Source: Hydrogenophaga sp. (GTDB lineage Bacteria; Pseudomonadota; Gammaproteobacteria; Burkholderiales; Burkholderiaceae_C). Taken from it: 35,611 bases of DNA. The stretch spans positions 38,541 through 74,151 of the forward strand of contig NZ_JALHLX010000005.1 in NCBI RefSeq assembly GCF_022844385.1, in the 5' to 3' direction. Of the stretch, positions 8,095 through 33,354 are shown in pieces; positions within the stretch are counted from its first letter, which is position 1, and every line of letters starts with the position of its first letter. The notes under the pieces are model-generated. The model saw nothing but the letters and a program-made list of their open reading frames with translations. It was not told where the DNA came from and searched no databases. A program made the translations under genes and the position numbers.

Positions 8095-8188
8095 GACGGG
8101 CCTTCCCGCATGGTGAAGCGGCCAACCGGGTCAGGTGGGGAACCAAGCAGCCCTAACTGTGAATCCAGTGCCGGGGTCAAGGCTCGTC
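8095..8188 (+). ncRNA. ffs: 4.5S RNA (signal recognition particle RNA)
   Basis: About 94 bases. The ends pair over 8 positions: GACGGGCC (8095-8102) with GGCTCGTC (8181-8188). The apical domain contains the conserved SRP pattern GGGTCAGGTGGGGAACC-AAGCAGCC (8128-8152), with a GGTCAGG symmetric-loop strand, a GGGGAACC tetraloop-type hairpin tip and the AAGCAGCC strand. The partner strand GTGCCGGGGTC follows. This RNA binds Ffh and FtsY for co-translational targeting of membrane proteins. It is divergent from dnaX, which starts 73 bases away. Exact ends are inferred from the closing stem. Confidence 0.93.
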
Positions 8189-8309
8189 ACCTTCTTCTCA
8201 AGACCTTCGCCGGTCGCTCTGTCGACACAAGGCTACCCTCGCGCGGTTTCGCCTGTACAGCCCCCTGACGATCGTGCTACAAGCCTCGCAAAACCAGCGA
8301 GGTGGATTC

Positions 8310-27317: not shown

Positions 27318-27351
27318 ACTCTAGGCAGGCAATGTGACAAGCTCGTGACAA
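27318..27351 (-). promoter_or_regulatory. Pho box and -10 of the pst-pho operon
   Basis: On the minus strand TTGTCAC-GAGC-TTGTCAC-AT (27351-27332) matches the PhoB consensus of two 7-base half-sites with an 11-base period. Eight bases downstream TAGAGT (27323-27318) serves as -10, the same spacing as in the E. coli phoA promoter. The pstS start is about 40 bases further. Another TTGTCAC on the plus strand (27359-27365) lacks a partner at 11 bases. Confidence 0.88.
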
Positions 27352-27500: not shown

Positions 27501-28985
27501 ATGCAAAACGGTACCCTCCTCGCCGCCATCGACCTCGGCTCCAACAGTTTCCGTCTGGAGATCGGCCGCTATCACTCGGGGCACATCGAGCGCATCGAAT
27601 ACCTCAAGGAAACCGTGCGCCAGGGCAACGGACTGGACGAGGAAAAGAACCTCAGCCAGGCCGCGATGGAGAGGGGCTGGGAATGCCTGGCCCGCTTTGC
27701 CGAGCGGCTGCACGGTTTCAAGCGTCAGCAGGTGCGCGCCGTGGCCACCCAGACCCTGCGCGAGGCCAGGAACCGCGACGATTTCGTGCGCCAAGCCCAG
27801 GCCGTGCTCGGCTTTCCGATCGACGTGGTCTCCGGCTATGAAGAAGCGCGCCTGATTTACCAGGGGGTTTCGCGCCTGCTGCCCCATTCCGACGAGAAAC
27901 GCCTGGTGGTCGACATCGGCGGGCGCTCCACCGAGATGATCCTGGGTCAGGGCTATTCGGCCCGCACCATGGAGTCTTACCACCTGGGCAGCGTGGCCTG
28001 GTCAACCCGTTACTTCCCGCGTGGGCAATTCAGCGCTGCCGCTTTCAAAACGGCCGAGGTGGCTGCCAAGGCAGTGATCGAGGATGCACTGGACCGTTTC
28101 CCGCCGGCCGACTGGACGGTGGCCTACGGATCGTCAGGCACCGTGAGCGCGGTGGCCGACATGCTCGCAGCCAACGGATGGGCCTCAGGGGTGGTCACCC
28201 GCTCGGGTCTGGACTGGCTGCTCGACCGCATGATCAAGTCGGGCAGCGCCGAGCAGATGCGCCTGGAAGGCCTCAAGGACGACCGCCGCCCGGTGATCGG
28301 CGGCGGTGTGAGCGTTTTGCGCGCCATCTTCGACCTGTTCGGCATCGAGCAGATGCTGCCGGCCCAGGGTGCGCTGCGTCATGGCGCGCTCTACGACCTG
28401 ATCGACCGCGACACCGACGGCGGCGACGTGCGCGAGCGCACGGTGAACTGGCTGGCGCACCGCTTCTCTGCCGACGAAGGCCATGGCAAGCGGGTCAGCA
28501 CAGTGAGCACCGCCCTCTTCTCCCAGATTGCCGCGGTGGATGCGCAAAACGAGCGTTATTCGCAAAAGCTGGCCTGGGCCGCCCGGCTGCACGAGATCGG
28601 CACCCACATTTCGCACGAACGTTCTCACCACCACGGCGCCTACATCCTCGACAACGTGGACGCACGCGGCTTTTCCCTGCCCGAGTTGCACCGCATGAGC
28701 CAGCTGGTGCTGGGCCAGCGCGGCAAGCTGCGCAAGCTCGAAGAAGCGCTGCAGGACGAGCTGTTCGCCAAACAGCTCATGGCCCTGCGCCTGGCCGTGC
28801 TGCTGTGTCACGCGCGGCAGATGCCCGAACACGAGTCGGTCGCTCTCAGCTACAAGCCGCGCGCCTTCAAACTGGCCACCAATCCGGGCTGGGCCAAGCG
28901 CTACCCGCAGTCGGCGTGGCTGCTGGGTGAAGAGGTGGTGGCCTGGCAGAAATCGGCCTGGAAGTTCACCGCGGACATCCGCTGA
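27501..28985 (+). CDS. ppx: Exopolyphosphatase (Ppx/GppA family)
   Basis: 494 residues. The ASKHA phosphatase core has A-A-I-D-L-G-S-N-S-F-R-L near the start, A-V-A-T-Q-T-L-R-E-A-R-N, and the second phosphate loop V-V-D-I-G-G-R-S-T-E. The C-terminal HD-like half includes L-H-E-I-G-T-H-I-S-H-E-R-S-H-H-H-G-A-Y. It releases phosphate from polyphosphate ends (GppA activity on pppGpp cannot be excluded). It is divergent from pstS across 221 bases, and ppk1 is nearby in the opposite orientation, so synthesis and breakdown genes of polyphosphate flank the RHH gene. Confidence 0.95.
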   Translation: MQNGTLLAAIDLGSNSFRLEIGRYHSGHIERIEYLKETVRQGNGLDEEKNLSQAAMERGWECLARFAERLHGFKRQQVRAVATQTLREARNRDDFVRQAQAVLGFPIDVVSGYEEARLIYQGVSRLLPHSDEKRLVVDIGGRSTEMILGQGYSARTMESYHLGSVAWSTRYFPRGQFSAAAFKTAEVAAKAVIEDALDRFPPADWTVAYGSSGTVSAVADMLAANGWASGVVTRSGLDWLLDRMIKSGSAEQMRLEGLKDDRRPVIGGGVSVLRAIFDLFGIEQMLPAQGALRHGALYDLIDRDTDGGDVRERTVNWLAHRFSADEGHGKRVSTVSTALFSQIAAVDAQNERYSQKLAWAARLHEIGTHISHERSHHHGAYILDNVDARGFSLPELHRMSQLVLGQRGKLRKLEEALQDELFAKQLMALRLAVLLCHARQMPEHESVALSYKPRAFKLATNPGWAKRYPQSAWLLGEEVVAWQKSAWKFTADIR

Positions 28986-28998
28986 TCGCCGGCGTACG

Positions 28999-29029
28999 CA
29001 GTCACATATTTGTCACGCTACTGTCACAA
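28999..29029 (+). promoter_or_regulatory. Three PhoB half-sites upstream of the RHH gene
   Basis: CAGTCAC (28999-29005), TTGTCAC (29010-29016) and CTGTCAC (29021-29027) are spaced exactly 11 bases, giving two overlapping Pho boxes on the sense strand of the downstream gene. The spacing to the nearest -10 candidates (TATAAA 29033, TATACG 29044, TATACT 29053) is not the usual 8 bases, so activation geometry is uncertain. Confidence 0.75.
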
Positions 29030-29058
29030 CCGTATAAACGGTTTATACGGTTTATACT
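29030..29058 (+). repeat. GTTTATAC operator-like repeats overlapping -10 region
   Basis: CCGTATAAAC (29030-29039) and GTTTATACGG (29041-29050) form a perfect 10-bp inverted repeat with one central base. A third unit in direct orientation follows (GTTTATAC, 29050-29057), giving the 9-base direct repeat GGTTTATAC twice (29040 and 29049). It lies between the PhoB half-sites and the ribosome-binding site and overlaps every -10 candidate, as a repressor operator would. Confidence 0.7.
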
Positions 29059-29091
29059 GCGCTCCTTTTTACTTTTCACCGGAGTGCATCC

Positions 29092-29541
29092 ATGGCCAGT
29101 CAGAGCAACAAGAAGCCCAAGCTCGTGCGCGACAGCTTCACCATTCCCAAGGCGGAATTCGCCGCCATTGAAACGCTGAAGACCCGCGCCATCGCGATGG
29201 GCACCAGCGTGAAGAAAAGCGAGCTGCTGCGCGCCGGCCTCATGGCTTTGCAAGGTCTGAACGACGCCGCATTCAAGGCTGCGCTGTCCGCCGTGCCCAC
29301 GCTCAAGACCGGTCGCCCCACCAGCACCGAGAAGAAGCCCGAAGCCGCGAAAAAACCCGTGGCGAAAACCGTCGCCAAGCCTGCGGTGAAAGCCGCGGCC
29401 AAGGTGGCCGCGAAGACCCCCGCCAAGCCGGTGGCCAAACCCGCAGCCAAAACCGCCACCCAGGCGGTCGCCAAAAAAGTGGCTGCCAAGCCCGCCGTCA
29501 AAAAGGCCGCCGCGCCTGCCCAAAAGGCCGCCACCGCCTGA
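29092..29541 (+). CDS. RHH-like DNA-binding protein with Lys/Ala/Pro histone-H1-like tail
   Basis: 149 residues; CCGGAG lies 7 bases before the ATG. Residues 10-55 look like a ribbon-helix-helix fold: strand L-V-R-D-S-F-T-I-P, helix A-E-F-A-A-I-E-T-L-K-T-R-A, turn M-G-T-S-V, helix K-K-S-E-L-L-R-A-G-L. Residues 80-149 are almost only Lys, Ala, Pro, Val and Thr with A-K-P-A-type repeats, like bacterial H1-like proteins (AlgP, PhaM tails). It would bind DNA, and the polycationic tail could contact DNA or polyphosphate. Located between ppx and sixA-ppk1 with PhoB half-sites upstream. The RHH call is from pattern only, and no function is known. Confidence 0.85.
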   Translation: MASQSNKKPKLVRDSFTIPKAEFAAIETLKTRAIAMGTSVKKSELLRAGLMALQGLNDAAFKAALSAVPTLKTGRPTSTEKKPEAAKKPVAKTVAKPAVKAAAKVAAKTPAKPVAKPAAKTATQAVAKKVAAKPAVKKAAAPAQKAATA

Positions 29542-29572: not shown

Positions 29573-30055
29573 TCAGATCAACTCGGGGGTTTGCACCGTC
29601 ACCACGACGGTCTGGTTGCCGCTGGCGCGCTCGCGGTGCCGCAACCACCACACAGCACCCTTCTTCACCGAACAATCGTCCTCGGCCAGGTTGAGCAGCC
29701 GTGCAATCACCCGCCCCAGCGTGGGCTGGTGCCCCACAACGACCACCGGCGACTTGCCGTGCGGCCATTGAACCAGTTCCAGCAAGGCCAGCGGATCGCC
29801 TTCGGGCAACAGCTCTTCACGCAGCTTGAACTTGCGCCCCAGCGCCAGCGCAGTCTGTTCACAACGCGAAGCCGGGCTGCTGAAGACGCGCGCGCCCTCG
29901 GGCAACTGCCGGTCCAGCCAGGCGGCCATGCGCGTGGCCTGCTTTTCTCCGCGCGGCGTGAGTCGTCTCGCCAGATCCCTGGCGTCGCCGGGCACCCCGG
30001 TCAGCAGATCGGGATGTTCATGGGCTTCGGCGTGCCGCCAGAGAATCAGGTCCAT
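29573..30055 (-). CDS. sixA: Phosphohistidine phosphatase SixA-like (histidine phosphatase family)
   Basis: 160 residues from ATG 30055, chosen because GGAGAG lies 9 bases upstream. An ATG at 30085 overlaps the ppk1 stop (ATGA) and would add ten residues. M-D-L-I-L-W-R-H-A-E-A is the catalytic R-H motif; S-S-P-A-S-R-C-E-Q-T-A and V-V-V-V-G-H-Q-P-T-L complete the family signature. SixA of E. coli removes phosphate from phosphohistidine proteins. The link with ppk1 on one transcript is common in betaproteobacteria, and its role there is unclear. Confidence 0.9.
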   Translation of the reverse strand: MDLILWRHAEAHEHPDLLTGVPGDARDLARRLTPRGEKQATRMAAWLDRQLPEGARVFSSPASRCEQTALALGRKFKLREELLPEGDPLALLELVQWPHGKSPVVVVGHQPTLGRVIARLLNLAEDDCSVKKGAVWWLRHRERASGNQTVVVTVQTPELI

Positions 30056-30081: not shown

Positions 30082-32160
30082 TCATCCCTTGCTGCCGTAG
30101 CGCGCCATCAGGCTGGCCTGAGCCGAATGCATCACGGCGCGTGTTCGACCGCTGCCGGTGATGCTGGCGGGCACGTAGCGCCCGTCGGGCTGCAGCAGCC
30201 ATGCGTCCTTGGTGTCGTGCAGATAAGCCGACAGGCACTCGTCAATGACGCGGTGGCGCAATGCGTTGTCGGTCACCGGCCAGGCCAGCTCGATGCGGCG
30301 CAACATGTTGCGGTTCATCCAGTCGGCGCTCGACAGCCACAGCTCCTCCGCCTCACCGGTGCGGAAATAGAACACCCGCGAATGCTCCAGCAAGCGACCG
30401 ATCACCGAGCGCACGCGCACGTTGTCGGTGAAGCCGGGCACCTGCGCCGGCAGGATGCAGGCGCCGCGGATGATGAGGTCGATCTTCACGCCCTGTTGCG
30501 AGGCCACCGCCAGCGCGCGCGCCAGCTGCTCGTCGGTGAGCGCGTTCATCTTGACGATCACACGCGCGTCCTGGCCGGCTTTGGCGGCCACGCCCGCCGC
30601 TTCCAGCTTGTCGAGCATGGCCTTGTGCAGGTGAAACGGTGCGATCAGCGCCTTGTTGAGCTTGGGCAGGCGGTTCTGGCTGGCCAGGTGCAGGAAGATC
30701 TGTTCCAGGTCGGCGGTGAGCGCGTCGTCGGCCGTGAGGTAACTGATGTCGGTGTACAGCCTGGCCGTGCCGGGGTTGTAGTTGCCGGTGGACAGGTGCG
30801 CGTAGCGCTTGAGCCCAGTGGCTTCGCGGCGGGTGATGAGCAGCATCTTGGCGTGGGTCTTGAGCCCCACGACCCCGTAGACCACCTGCGCCCCCACCGA
30901 CTCCAGCCGCTCGGCGTAGTTGATGTTGGCCTCTTCGTCAAAGCGCGCCTTGAGCTCCACCACGGCGGTGACTTCCTTGCCACGGCGCACGGCCTCGCGC
31001 AGCAGGTTCATCAGCTCCGACTTGGCGCCCGTGCGGTAGATGGTCATCTTGATGGCCAGCACGTCCGGGTCTTCCACCGCTTCGCGCAGGAAGGCGAGCA
31101 CAGCGTCAAAACTCTCGTACGGCTGGTGGATCAGCACATCGCCCTGCTGCAACCGCTCAAAGTACGACTGCCCGGGTGTGAGCTGCGCAGGCCAGCCGCC
31201 GTTGTAGGCCTCGAAGCGCAGCGCGGGCGCCTCCACCTTGTCGATCAGCTGGTTCAGCCGCACCAGGTTCACCGGCCCGGGCACGCGGTACAGCGCCTGG
31301 TTCGGCAGGGCGAACTGCTCCAGCAGGAAATTGGACAGGAACTCCGAACAGCCCGCCGACACCTCCAGCCGCAGGGCCTGGCCGTAGTGGCGCTGTTGCA
31401 GGCCTTTGCGCAGTGCAGTGCGAAGGTTCTTCACCTCTTCCTCGTCCACCGCCAGGTCGGAGTGGCGCGTGACGCGGAACTGCGAAAACTCGGTGACCTG
31501 GCGACCCGGGAACAGGTCACCCAGGTGCGAACGGATCAGGCTGGAAATGGAAACAAAGTGGGTCTGTTTGGAACCCTTGATCGGCGGCATGCGGAAGAAG
31601 CGCGGCAGGATGCGCGGGACCTTCACGATGGCGATTTCGTTCTCGCGTCCGAAAGCGTCCTTGCCGGCCAGCCGCACGATGAAGTTGAGCGACTTGTTGG
31701 CCACCTGCGGGAATGGGTGTGCCGGGTCCAGCCCCACCGGCATCAGCAGAGGCTGGACTTCATTGATGAAAAACTCCTTGACCCAGCGCCGCTGGCGCGG
31801 ATTGCGCTCGCCGTGCGAAATCAGCTTGATGCCCTTTTTCTCCAGCAGCGGCAGCAACTCGTCGTTGTAGATGGCGTACTGCTGGGCCACCAGCCGATGG
31901 ACTTCTTCCGACAGCTTCTCGAAGGTCTGCGCGGTGTACTGGCCGCGTTGTTCGTTGGCCTGGGCGGCGGTGAGGTGGGGTGCGACGCGGACCTCGAAGA
32001 ACTCGTCGAGATTGCTGGAGACGATGCTGAGGTAGCGCAGGCGCTCCAGCAGCGGCACGTCGGGGCGGCGTGCCCAGTCCATGACGCGTTCGTTGAAAGC
32101 CAGGATGCTGTGATCGCGATCGAGGAAAGGAAACTTGCTGTTGGAGTTGTTGCCGCTCAT
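30082..32160 (-). CDS. ppk1: Polyphosphate kinase 1
   Basis: 692 residues, normal length. The N-domain begins with F-L-D-R-D-H-S-I-L-A-F-N-E-R-V and S-N-L-D-E-F-F-E-V-R. The catalytic core has H-A-K-M-L-L-I-T-R-R with the phosphorylated His, then Y-A-H-L-S-T-G-N-Y-N-P-G-T-A-R-L-Y-T-D, and the second His region E-H-S-R-V-F-Y-F. It polymerises ATP gamma-phosphate into polyphosphate. A Pho-box promoter lies about 80-115 bases upstream, inside the end of the glycosyltransferase gene. sixA follows 26 bases downstream. Confidence 0.97.
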   Translation of the reverse strand: MSGNNSNSKFPFLDRDHSILAFNERVMDWARRPDVPLLERLRYLSIVSSNLDEFFEVRVAPHLTAAQANEQRGQYTAQTFEKLSEEVHRLVAQQYAIYNDELLPLLEKKGIKLISHGERNPRQRRWVKEFFINEVQPLLMPVGLDPAHPFPQVANKSLNFIVRLAGKDAFGRENEIAIVKVPRILPRFFRMPPIKGSKQTHFVSISSLIRSHLGDLFPGRQVTEFSQFRVTRHSDLAVDEEEVKNLRTALRKGLQQRHYGQALRLEVSAGCSEFLSNFLLEQFALPNQALYRVPGPVNLVRLNQLIDKVEAPALRFEAYNGGWPAQLTPGQSYFERLQQGDVLIHQPYESFDAVLAFLREAVEDPDVLAIKMTIYRTGAKSELMNLLREAVRRGKEVTAVVELKARFDEEANINYAERLESVGAQVVYGVVGLKTHAKMLLITRREATGLKRYAHLSTGNYNPGTARLYTDISYLTADDALTADLEQIFLHLASQNRLPKLNKALIAPFHLHKAMLDKLEAAGVAAKAGQDARVIVKMNALTDEQLARALAVASQQGVKIDLIIRGACILPAQVPGFTDNVRVRSVIGRLLEHSRVFYFRTGEAEELWLSSADWMNRNMLRRIELAWPVTDNALRHRVIDECLSAYLHDTKDAWLLQPDGRYVPASITGSGRTRAVMHSAQASLMARYGSKG

Positions 32161-32241
32161 GTCTGGTCTTGTTGTCGACGGGGGCGTCCGTCCTGTGGTC
32201 TGGGGCAGTATGCCCAGCCGCTTCCACGAACTTTGTGACGA

Positions 32242-32274
32242 TTATTCAACGAGCGGATGACGTTTGTGTGACAG
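32242..32274 (-). promoter_or_regulatory. Pho box and -10 of ppk1
   Basis: On the minus strand CTGTCAC-ACAA-ACGTCAT-CC (32274-32255): the first half-site is perfect, the second has two or three mismatches. Eight bases on, AATAAT (32246-32241 region) is a good -10, the same spacing as in the pstS promoter. The whole element overlaps the last ten codons and stop of the upstream glycosyltransferase. Confidence 0.75.
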
Positions 32275-33354
32275 TTTCACGAGGGCGTCTCCGTCATGAC
32301 CCAGCACGGACAAGCCCGGACGCTGGCGCTGCCTCGGGTGCCGCGGCAGCACCACGAGGTGCGAGAGGAACAAGGCGCTCGCCCGGCCCCAACCAAAGTG
32401 CAGCGCGCGGTCACGCGCCTCATGGCGTTTGACCTTGAGCGCCTCGACCCAGGCCTCGCGAAGGTCTTCACGCATGGCGCCCGCGTGACTCTGCCCCAAC
32501 ACCTGCATGGGCCCGTCCACCGGGTAGGCGGCAACCGGCACGCCACTGGCCATGGCCTCCAGCATGGTGCGGCCAAAGGTCTCACCGCGGGCCGGGAACA
32601 CAAACACATCGGCGCAGGCGTACACCTGCGCCAGCTCGTGCCGGGGCAGCACACCCAGCCAGTGCACATTGGGGTAGCGCGCCCGCAGGCTCGAAGCGAG
32701 CGGCCCGACGCCGCACACCACCTTGCTGCCGGGCACGTCCAGTGCCAGAAAAGCCTCGATGTTTTTCTCGCGCGCGATGCGCCCGACATACAGGCTCACC
32801 GGGTGCGCCAGTGGACCCAGCGGCGCGCAGGGCTGGCTGCTGTCGGACAGCGCGAACAGACGCGTGTCCACGCCGTGCGTCCACAGCAGCAAGCGGCGAA
32901 ACCCTCGCGCCTCCAGCATGTTGAGCACGCCCTGGCTGGGCGCCATCACGCCGTTGGAGGGCTTGTGAAACCAGCGCAGCAGCGCGTAGCCCCAGTTCAC
33001 CGGCAGGCCAAACGTGTCCTTGAGGATTTCAGGAAACTTGGTGTGAAACGCGGTGGTGAAGGGCCAGCGGCGCCGCAGGCAGTGGCGCCGCGCCGCCCAG
33101 CCGAGCGGGCCCTCGGTGGCAATGTGAATGGCGTGCGCCTGGGCGCTGTCCATGAGCTCGCGCAGCCGCGAGCCGGGAAACCACGCAATGTGGATGTTGG
33201 GAAACCCGGGGCACGGCCGGGTGCGGAACTGTCCGGGCTGGATGACCACGACCTCGTGGCCGCTGATCTGGAGCTGACGAACCAGTTCAGCCAGTGTGGT
33301 GGCGACCGAATTCACCTGCGGTTGCCAGGCGTCCGTCACGATCAGGATCTTCAT
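32242..33354 (-). CDS. GT4 glycosyltransferase, probably lipid (diacylglycerol) glycosyltransferase
   Basis: 370 residues from ATG 33354 (AGGGAG about 6 bases upstream). The N-terminus M-K-I-L-I-V-T-D-A-W-x-P-Q-V-N-S-V and the H-I-A-T-E-G-P-L-G segment are typical of the MgtA/SqdX-type GT4 branch. The C-terminal half has L-Y-V-G-R-I-A-R-E-K-N-I and F-V-F-P-A-R-G-E-T-F-G-R-T-M-L-E-A-M-A-S-G-V-P-V with the E-x7-E sugar-nucleotide motif. With the phosphoesterase upstream it resembles the plcP-agt pair that makes glycolipids when phosphate is scarce. The start lies 68 bases inside the upstream gene. The last ~35 residues look unconserved and cover the ppk1 promoter. Confidence 0.87.
   Translation of the reverse strand: MKILIVTDAWQPQVNSVATTLAELVRQLQISGHEVVVIQPGQFRTRPCPGFPNIHIAWFPGSRLRELMDSAQAHAIHIATEGPLGWAARRHCLRRRWPFTTAFHTKFPEILKDTFGLPVNWGYALLRWFHKPSNGVMAPSQGVLNMLEARGFRRLLLWTHGVDTRLFALSDSSQPCAPLGPLAHPVSLYVGRIAREKNIEAFLALDVPGSKVVCGVGPLASSLRARYPNVHWLGVLPRHELAQVYACADVFVFPARGETFGRTMLEAMASGVPVAAYPVDGPMQVLGQSHAGAMREDLREAWVEALKVKRHEARDRALHFGWGRASALFLSHLVVLPRHPRQRQRPGLSVLGHDGDALVKLSHKRHPLVE

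Follow-up and report, generated by a model that had tools for sequence, protein, structure and literature searches.

A putative autoregulated RHH-like protein with a lysine/alanine/proline tail, encoded near polyphosphate genes in Burkholderiales

The window analysed here is a whole stretch of 35,611 nucleotides from Hydrogenophaga sp. (contig NZ_JALHLX010000005.1, positions 38,541 to 74,151). Within it, an ATG open frame on the + strand (29092-29541), preceded by a ribosome-binding GGAG at 29081-29084, encodes a 149-aa protein composed of an RHH-like domain (residues 7-76; 29110-29319, + strand) and a Lys/Ala/Pro tail predicted to be disordered (residues 77-149; 29320-29538, + strand). Upstream on the same strand lies ppx, encoding a Ppx/GppA family exopolyphosphatase (27501-28985; identified with Pfam and NCBIfam), while downstream, on the opposite strand, are a sixA-like histidine phosphatase gene (about 29573-30055; Pfam superfamily over cut-off, NCBIfam TIGR00249 below cut-off) and the polyphosphate kinase gene ppk1 (30082-32160; Pfam and NCBIfam over cut-off). 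The genes beyond ppx, from about 27432 down to 20606, we take from their position to be pstSCAB-phoU-phoB-phoR. The RHH protein has a single match in the window's genome (3.9 Mb, 237 contigs). A bacterial small SRP RNA gene was also seen in the window, at 8095-8191.

The intergenic stretch between ppx and the RHH gene carries two types of repeated element. The first is an operator at 29028-29057 (no strand assigned) built of GTWTAWACn units in 9-bp steps: GTATAAAC at 29032-29039, GTTTATAC at 29041-29048 and GTTTATAC again at 29050-29057. The first two units lie inside a perfect 25-bp palindrome (29028-29052), the last forms a third half-site, and a possible -10 element, TATACT (29053-29058, + strand), overlaps it. 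Directly ahead of the operator are three 11-bp Pho-box repeats (29001-29027, + strand, 0 mismatches) of the form GTCAY-N6, a consensus that we take to be that of PhoB.

To characterise the domain, we aligned a 70-residue core from 93 sequences. Five residues (R, R, K, G and R) are invariant, near-invariant positions fall within the motifs VRDSFTxP and KKSExLRAG, and the core ends in an invariant K-x-GR. An AlphaFold2 monomer model made with this alignment (pLDDT 92) comprises an extended VRDSFTI segment followed by helices at protein residues 20-35, 42-54 and 58-66, the last being an extra helix. When 14 chains were aligned to this model, RHH proteins came out best, led by the RHH part of NikR (Z 4.2, 1.8 Å over 43 residues), with ParD third of the listed chains (Z 3.2). 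A Foldseek search with the model returned nothing significant (best E 3.5), the 149-aa protein matched no Pfam or NCBIfam family over cut-off, and a PDB sequence search reached at best E 0.12 (ParD at E 1.5). A Pfam scan of the 93 members produced scattered weak single-member matches to unrelated families (best E 0.0018), and the Pfam ParD RHH family was touched by 1 of the 93 (E 0.059). Because Foldseek was not significant and ParD was touched by just that one member, we call the domain RHH-like, a label resting on shape and pattern. Membership in a named family was rejected, given weak Pfam and PDB matches and none over cut-off in Pfam or NCBIfam.

The tail of the window's protein, modelled from its single sequence, is coil with block pLDDT values of 44-58. 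Across 151 tails of at least 40 aa, drawn from 156 loci, the median tail had 85 aa, 19% Lys, 29% Ala, 14% Pro, 4% Asp+Glu and a net charge of +15. The motif KPAA occurs 181 times in these tails, and lysines four residues apart are strongly over-represented (745 pairs vs 457 expected, sd 17, z 17.2), with a further signal at lag 8 (z 13.0). The side on which the tail is attached varies: over 99 loci (the window, 22 genome_contigs and 76 family genomes) 80 have it at the N-terminus, 14 (including the window's group) at the C-terminus, 4 at both ends and 1 has none, with at least three switches on the domain tree. Since composition and periodicity recur while the side switches, tail chemistry is mostly kept and tail position is not. 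Among homologues without a basic tail are one of 84 aa (L131) and one whose tail has no Lys (L059); in several plasmid copies the tail is less regular and of mixed charge. An earlier sequence-only reading of this DNA had placed a small protein gene between ppx and sixA-ppk1 and had given its product an N-terminal RHH-like domain and an H1/AlgP-type tail. The open frame and its family-matched neighbours, the extended segment and helices of the model with NikR and then ParD among its best chains, and the composition and four-residue lysine spacing of the tails all agree with that description.

KPAA-type lysine/alanine/proline tails, H1-like in kind, are common to the RHH protein, AlgP and PhaF. 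In the passages on AlgP of Pseudomonas aeruginosa in PMC9239181, this protein, with its KPAA-type tail, sits on polyphosphate granules and is thought to bind DNA, and it is apparently found on the nucleoid once all polyphosphate kinases are deleted. Those passages give AlgP a C-terminal tail and an N-terminus predicted to be helical, and mention neither an RHH domain nor an operator of its own, whereas the RHH protein has an RHH-like domain, an operator at its own gene and a tail at either end. A plain AlgP-like tether between granule and nucleoid, in which the tail would act on bulk DNA as well as polyphosphate while the RHH domain would serve simple autorepression with no sensing of polyphosphate, is in our view possible but somewhat unlikely. 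It fits the tail composition and lysine spacing, which are as described for AlgP, the attachment of the tail at either end, as expected of a tether, and the one strong target of the RHH domain described below, but it leaves the DNA-binding domain without a role beyond level control. KPAA tails may also simply bind DNA or RNA.

The operator accompanies the gene well beyond the window. At ≤3 mismatches, the pattern GTWTAWACNGTWTAWAC lies before the domain in 92 of the 99 loci, and an operator was found ahead of 132 of 148 homologues vs 2 of 1504 control windows, the region searched varying in length (200 nt together with any open frame ahead of the domain) and the control windows being 400 nt. 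Copies without nearby ppx, sixA or ppk1 have it as well (41/48), and the shuffled window gave 0 matches to the palindromic operator. The consensus of 136 sites is AAACgGTATAAACTGTTTATACtGTTTA, with two units in 53 sites, three in 63, and four or five in 20; operator-to-start distances are partly circular, as the first start codon after the operator was the one used. As to the possible -10 element TATACT, a sigma-70 scan found no promoter.

We then considered sites with ≤1 mismatch across 150 family genomes, in which the tallies of operator sites, ppk1 and ParA against the RHH gene were made by hand. Such sites occur in 49 genomes, 45 of which have one at the RHH gene. Six lie away from it (in G130, G035, G112, G043, G051 and G072, with no RHH match in G043 and G072), no more than were found with a backwards control pattern (31 sites in 23 genomes). 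When the window's genome is searched with the strict pattern, ≤2 mismatches give this locus only, and ≤3 mismatches also C3:51587 (3 mismatches); another genome (G133) has two gene copies, each with its own operator. Because strong sites sit at the protein's own gene, with just six elsewhere, the protein looks, as far as sequence can tell, like a self-regulator with essentially one strong target, its own promoter, and a tandem, palindromic operator at that position is what would be expected of an RHH protein. This reading applies to genomes with a ≤1-mismatch site and not to the 32 of 77 gene-bearing genomes that have none at the RHH gene, given which weaker or secondary targets may exist. In G051, a second operator copy (C13:35339; L251:4340-4356) was seen ~214 bp behind ppx, with the RHH gene ~10 kb away; located at ppx, where relatives carry the RHH gene, it is a probable relict of a rearrangement or move.

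These data also bear on the view that the protein is a classical transcription regulator of ppx, sixA and ppk1, as its gene neighbourhood could suggest and as could loci whose operator is flanked by divergent genes (L112 with ppx, the L206 type with sixA). The ppx, sixA and ppk1 promoters of the window, however, contain no operator at ≤3 mismatches, and the excess of ≤1-mismatch sites over the backwards control that such a regulator should leave elsewhere in the 150 genomes is missing, which makes this role very unlikely. Regulation of ppx and ppk1 by the RHH protein was rejected because those promoters have no operators.

An exact two-unit Pho box near the operator was found in 7 of 136 loci, the window included (0.5 expected); L005, L006 and L057 also have it. 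In the window, the repeats stand at the promoter as expected of a PhoB regulon member, whereas a constant link to PhoB was rejected on the 7/136 count; PhoB input seems limited to some clades. Pho-like repeats were also seen before ppk1 (32235-32283, 2-3 mismatches) and pstS (27323-27349, 3 mismatches); the whole window has 12 such matches vs a mean of 4.5 in shuffles, so some of them may be chance. The sequence-only reading had noted PhoB half-sites upstream of the gene, which holds for the window, where they are three exact units, and for its clade, while elsewhere the exact box is found in a minority; the palindromic operator was absent from that reading. As for the transcription or genome organiser that it proposed, the putative specific DNA-binding domain is predicted to target the protein's own promoter rather than the polyphosphate genes or the genome at large.

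In genomes sampled by taxonomic rank up to the class, the core is present in 77/150 from the family, 57/250 from the order (35 of 120 genera) and 3/185 from the class; the window's genus accounts for two of these last three. Linkage was scored in the 128 homologues whose flanks extend for 4 kb or more both ways. A ppx, sixA or ppk1 gene lies no more than 4 kb off in 79 of them (ppx or ppk1 in 74), against a chance linkage, by arithmetic, of ~0.7%; the remaining 49 have none of the three in that range. This survey of neighbourhoods bears out the linkage to ppx and ppk first proposed from the window, and the homologues are not simply scattered, even with those 49 unlinked. By source, linked copies numbered 41/62 (family), 12/17 (genome_contigs) and 26/49 (order); an alternative count of 92/140 admits cut loci only where a gene was seen, and 79/128 was preferred. 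The linked loci fall into 13 arrangements, including ppx-RHH-sixA-ppk1 as in the window (41), the RHH gene between sixA and ppk1 (6, all in one other family) and ppx downstream (5). On the domain tree, which is poorly resolved (70 columns, many open forks), linkage is gained or lost at least 22 times. The rows used in this work exclude L133 (no tblastn match), identical domains and five order/class loci of <55 bits, and additional or fragmentary matches of G048, G074 and G131 did not count as loci. As ppx, sixA and ppk1 often form one cluster, part of the linkage amounts to a single linkage kept while genes moved.

Some of the other loci are associated with different phosphate genes. Nine of the 48 loci without ppx, sixA or ppk1 within 6.6 kb have PPK2, CYTH-CHAD or pst/pho genes, while 20 control windows (3.8-6.8 kb, around unlinked ParA) contained no polyphosphate gene and one phoR-like match. 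In the part of PMC6537752 that deals with them, CHAD proteins bind polyphosphate and sit on polyphosphate granules in Ralstonia eutropha. The gene ppk1 occurs in 138 of the 150 genomes at nearly equal frequency with (74/77) or without (64/73) the RHH gene, so co-occurrence by itself ties the two genes weakly. PPK2, counted in the three RHH-bearing genomes that lack ppk1, is present in all three, at 2.8 kb from the RHH gene in G022, at 2.0 kb in G031 and on other contigs in G036. Three unlinked homologues (L083, L109 and L126) adjoin a similar protein, presumably a CorA/ZntB-type metal transporter.

The core was also found in 15 plasmid records, 12 in Burkholderiales genera and the others in Calothrix, Piscirickettsia and Thiomicrorhabdus, and 12 stretches, taken from these records and from those of a second search, were looked at. 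One copy lies 69 bp before phoU, another 162 bp behind a CHAD gene (a near-identical plasmid was also seen), a further one is divergent from a 'phosphate transport regulator' gene, and in a Cupriavidus record without annotation the copy lies about 0.6 kb before ppk1. In the Comamonas aquatica plasmid p1_SCLZS63, the homologue immediately follows an arsenic resistance operon with arsA, arsB, arsC and arsH; arsenate mimics phosphate. Two unannotated plasmid stretches (L279 and L281) have no phosphate gene.

We propose, with a probability of about 0.5 for the model as a whole, that this is an autoregulated, polyphosphate-responsive DNA-binding protein, that is, an autorepressor titrated by the polymer; that it senses or anchors polyphosphate and controls mainly its own gene is probable. 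RHH dimers would bind the tandem 9-bp units in their own promoter and repress it, while the flexible KPAA tails, with their AlgP-like chemistry, would bind accumulating polyphosphate. Capture by the polymer would pull the protein off the operator, and more protein would be made until the polymer is covered. Both polyphosphate binding by the tail and release from the operator are suggested here by analogy with AlgP. PhoB probably adds low-phosphate induction in the window's clade, and RHH domains with free tails on granules could tether polyphosphate to DNA.

The proposed logic, in which a storage polymer would take a repressor off promoters, resembles that of PhaR: in the sections of PMC12542648 on this protein, its removal by PHB granules, or its deletion, suffices to raise PhaP1, and its negative autoregulation is considered probably not general. 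PhaR acts on the phasin and other genes, whereas the RHH protein seems self-targeting and its polymer would be polyphosphate; no sequence kinship is claimed. The model would thereby merge the role of PhaR, a polymer-sensing repressor, with the granule coat or tether role known for PHB. PhaM of Ralstonia eutropha has a histone-like C-terminus that ties granules to the nucleoid according to the corresponding section of a 2025 review (PMC13052382); those are PHB granules, and the RHH protein, as stated, has no NCBIfam family over cut-off. For polyphosphate granules, a table passage of the same review gives AlgP as the sole positioning protein. Among the matches listed in the open PMC literature (titles and abstract starts), we found no paper on this RHH-KPAA family and none joining polyphosphate granules with an RHH protein; nor did open PMC yield a paper joining RHH with polyphosphate and ppk. 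The family is a compact Burkholderiales candidate with a defined operator, and any polyphosphate sensing by it could be addressed with one promoter fusion.

A different set of neighbours points towards plasmid partition. Among the genes directly next to the 48 unlinked copies, those for a ParA-family ATPase are the most frequent, found in five loci (L099, L203, L216, L235 and L240); the ParA gene is 18 bp away in L099, divergent in L203 and L216, and in a further locus, L065, 13 bp away. Overall, ParA-like genes occur in 10 of 156 loci, three of them with weak cores (L240, L248 and L249), and not in the window. The NCBIfam ParA partition model matched all five ParA neighbours tested, four below cut-off. 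ParG of plasmid TP228, a type Ib partition protein, is described in the relevant portion of PMC7308502 as an RHH protein with a disordered tail that represses its own operon via an upstream operator. The family resembles it in having an RHH-like domain with a predicted disordered tail and iterons ahead of its own gene, and differs from it in the KPAA tail, the frequent polyphosphate-gene neighbours and, at most of these loci, the lack of the adjacent ParA ATPase gene that type Ib systems have.

The three distant plasmid genera extend this comparison. In Calothrix, a ParA-matching gene annotated as cobyrinic acid a,c-diamide synthase lies 105 bp from the homologue, in Piscirickettsia the ParA gene is 63 bp away in one case and overlaps in another, and in Thiomicrorhabdus no ParA gene was seen beside the homologue. 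Arrays of 9-bp iterons lie upstream in Piscirickettsia (4 units, 3 mismatches) and Calothrix (7 units, 10 mismatches); for both, 0 of 300 resampled copies were as good and 9 was the best of spacings 7 to 12, in stretches that were chosen after reading the sequence. The tails of both are charged and not KPAA-like, and the Calothrix core had no match when compared with phage records. In the Calothrix plasmid, the stretch between ParA and RHH genes (L276, upstream of 2842) is largely 9-bp iteron array, likely a partition centromere. At the level of sequence, the core and its DNA specificity are common to these ParA-RHH plasmid cassettes. Because distant plasmid homologues adjoin ParA and carry the same 9-bp iterons, we infer a direction: plasmid partition proteins of the ParG-like, ParA-partner kind are the probable source of both the RHH core and its iteron specificity.

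Whether a partition function survives is another matter. One could envisage a ParG-like adaptor that, with an orphan ParA, positions granules or the ppx-ppk locus, the operator acting as a centromere-like anchor. The adjacent ParA genes (L065, L099, L203, L216 and L235), the plasmid ParA-RHH pairs, two with the same 9-bp iterons, and the ParG precedent of an RHH protein whose flexible tails accompany repression of its own operon (PMC7308502, in the portion cited) would suit such an adaptor; yet the ParA neighbours were noticed after the fact, and the ParA subfamily, present in 119 of 150 genomes, does not follow the RHH gene (63/77 with it, 56/73 without). The ParA gene of the window's genome lies on a different contig, and none of 20 ParA stretches chosen from the 119 genomes has an RHH homologue beside ParA. 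We consider this adaptor quite unlikely, and an obligatory ParA partner was rejected on the lack of co-occurrence and on those 20 stretches. Another view takes the gene for a chromosomal leftover, orphaned from a plasmid partition or antitoxin-like module and with no polyphosphate function. It draws on the plasmid homologues with ParA and on the patchy presence in 77/150 genomes, but is highly unlikely, as linkage to polyphosphate genes persists through many rearrangements and the operator and tail chemistry are kept across divergent lineages. A variant that we regard as unlikely, though worth stating, is a domesticated partition protein whose former centromere iterons would persist as one chromosomal site next to the polyphosphate genes, anchoring granules at its own locus, perhaps via the orphan ParA to the segregation machinery, with polyphosphate setting its level by competing for the tails. 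The titrated autorepressor that we favour would, for its part, be a case of a DNA-binding module of partition type put to new use in a storage organelle. As a minor observation from the chosen ParA stretches (L252-L271), the orphan ParA gene is followed in 6 of 18 parsed loci by a gene that we take to be MaoC-like.
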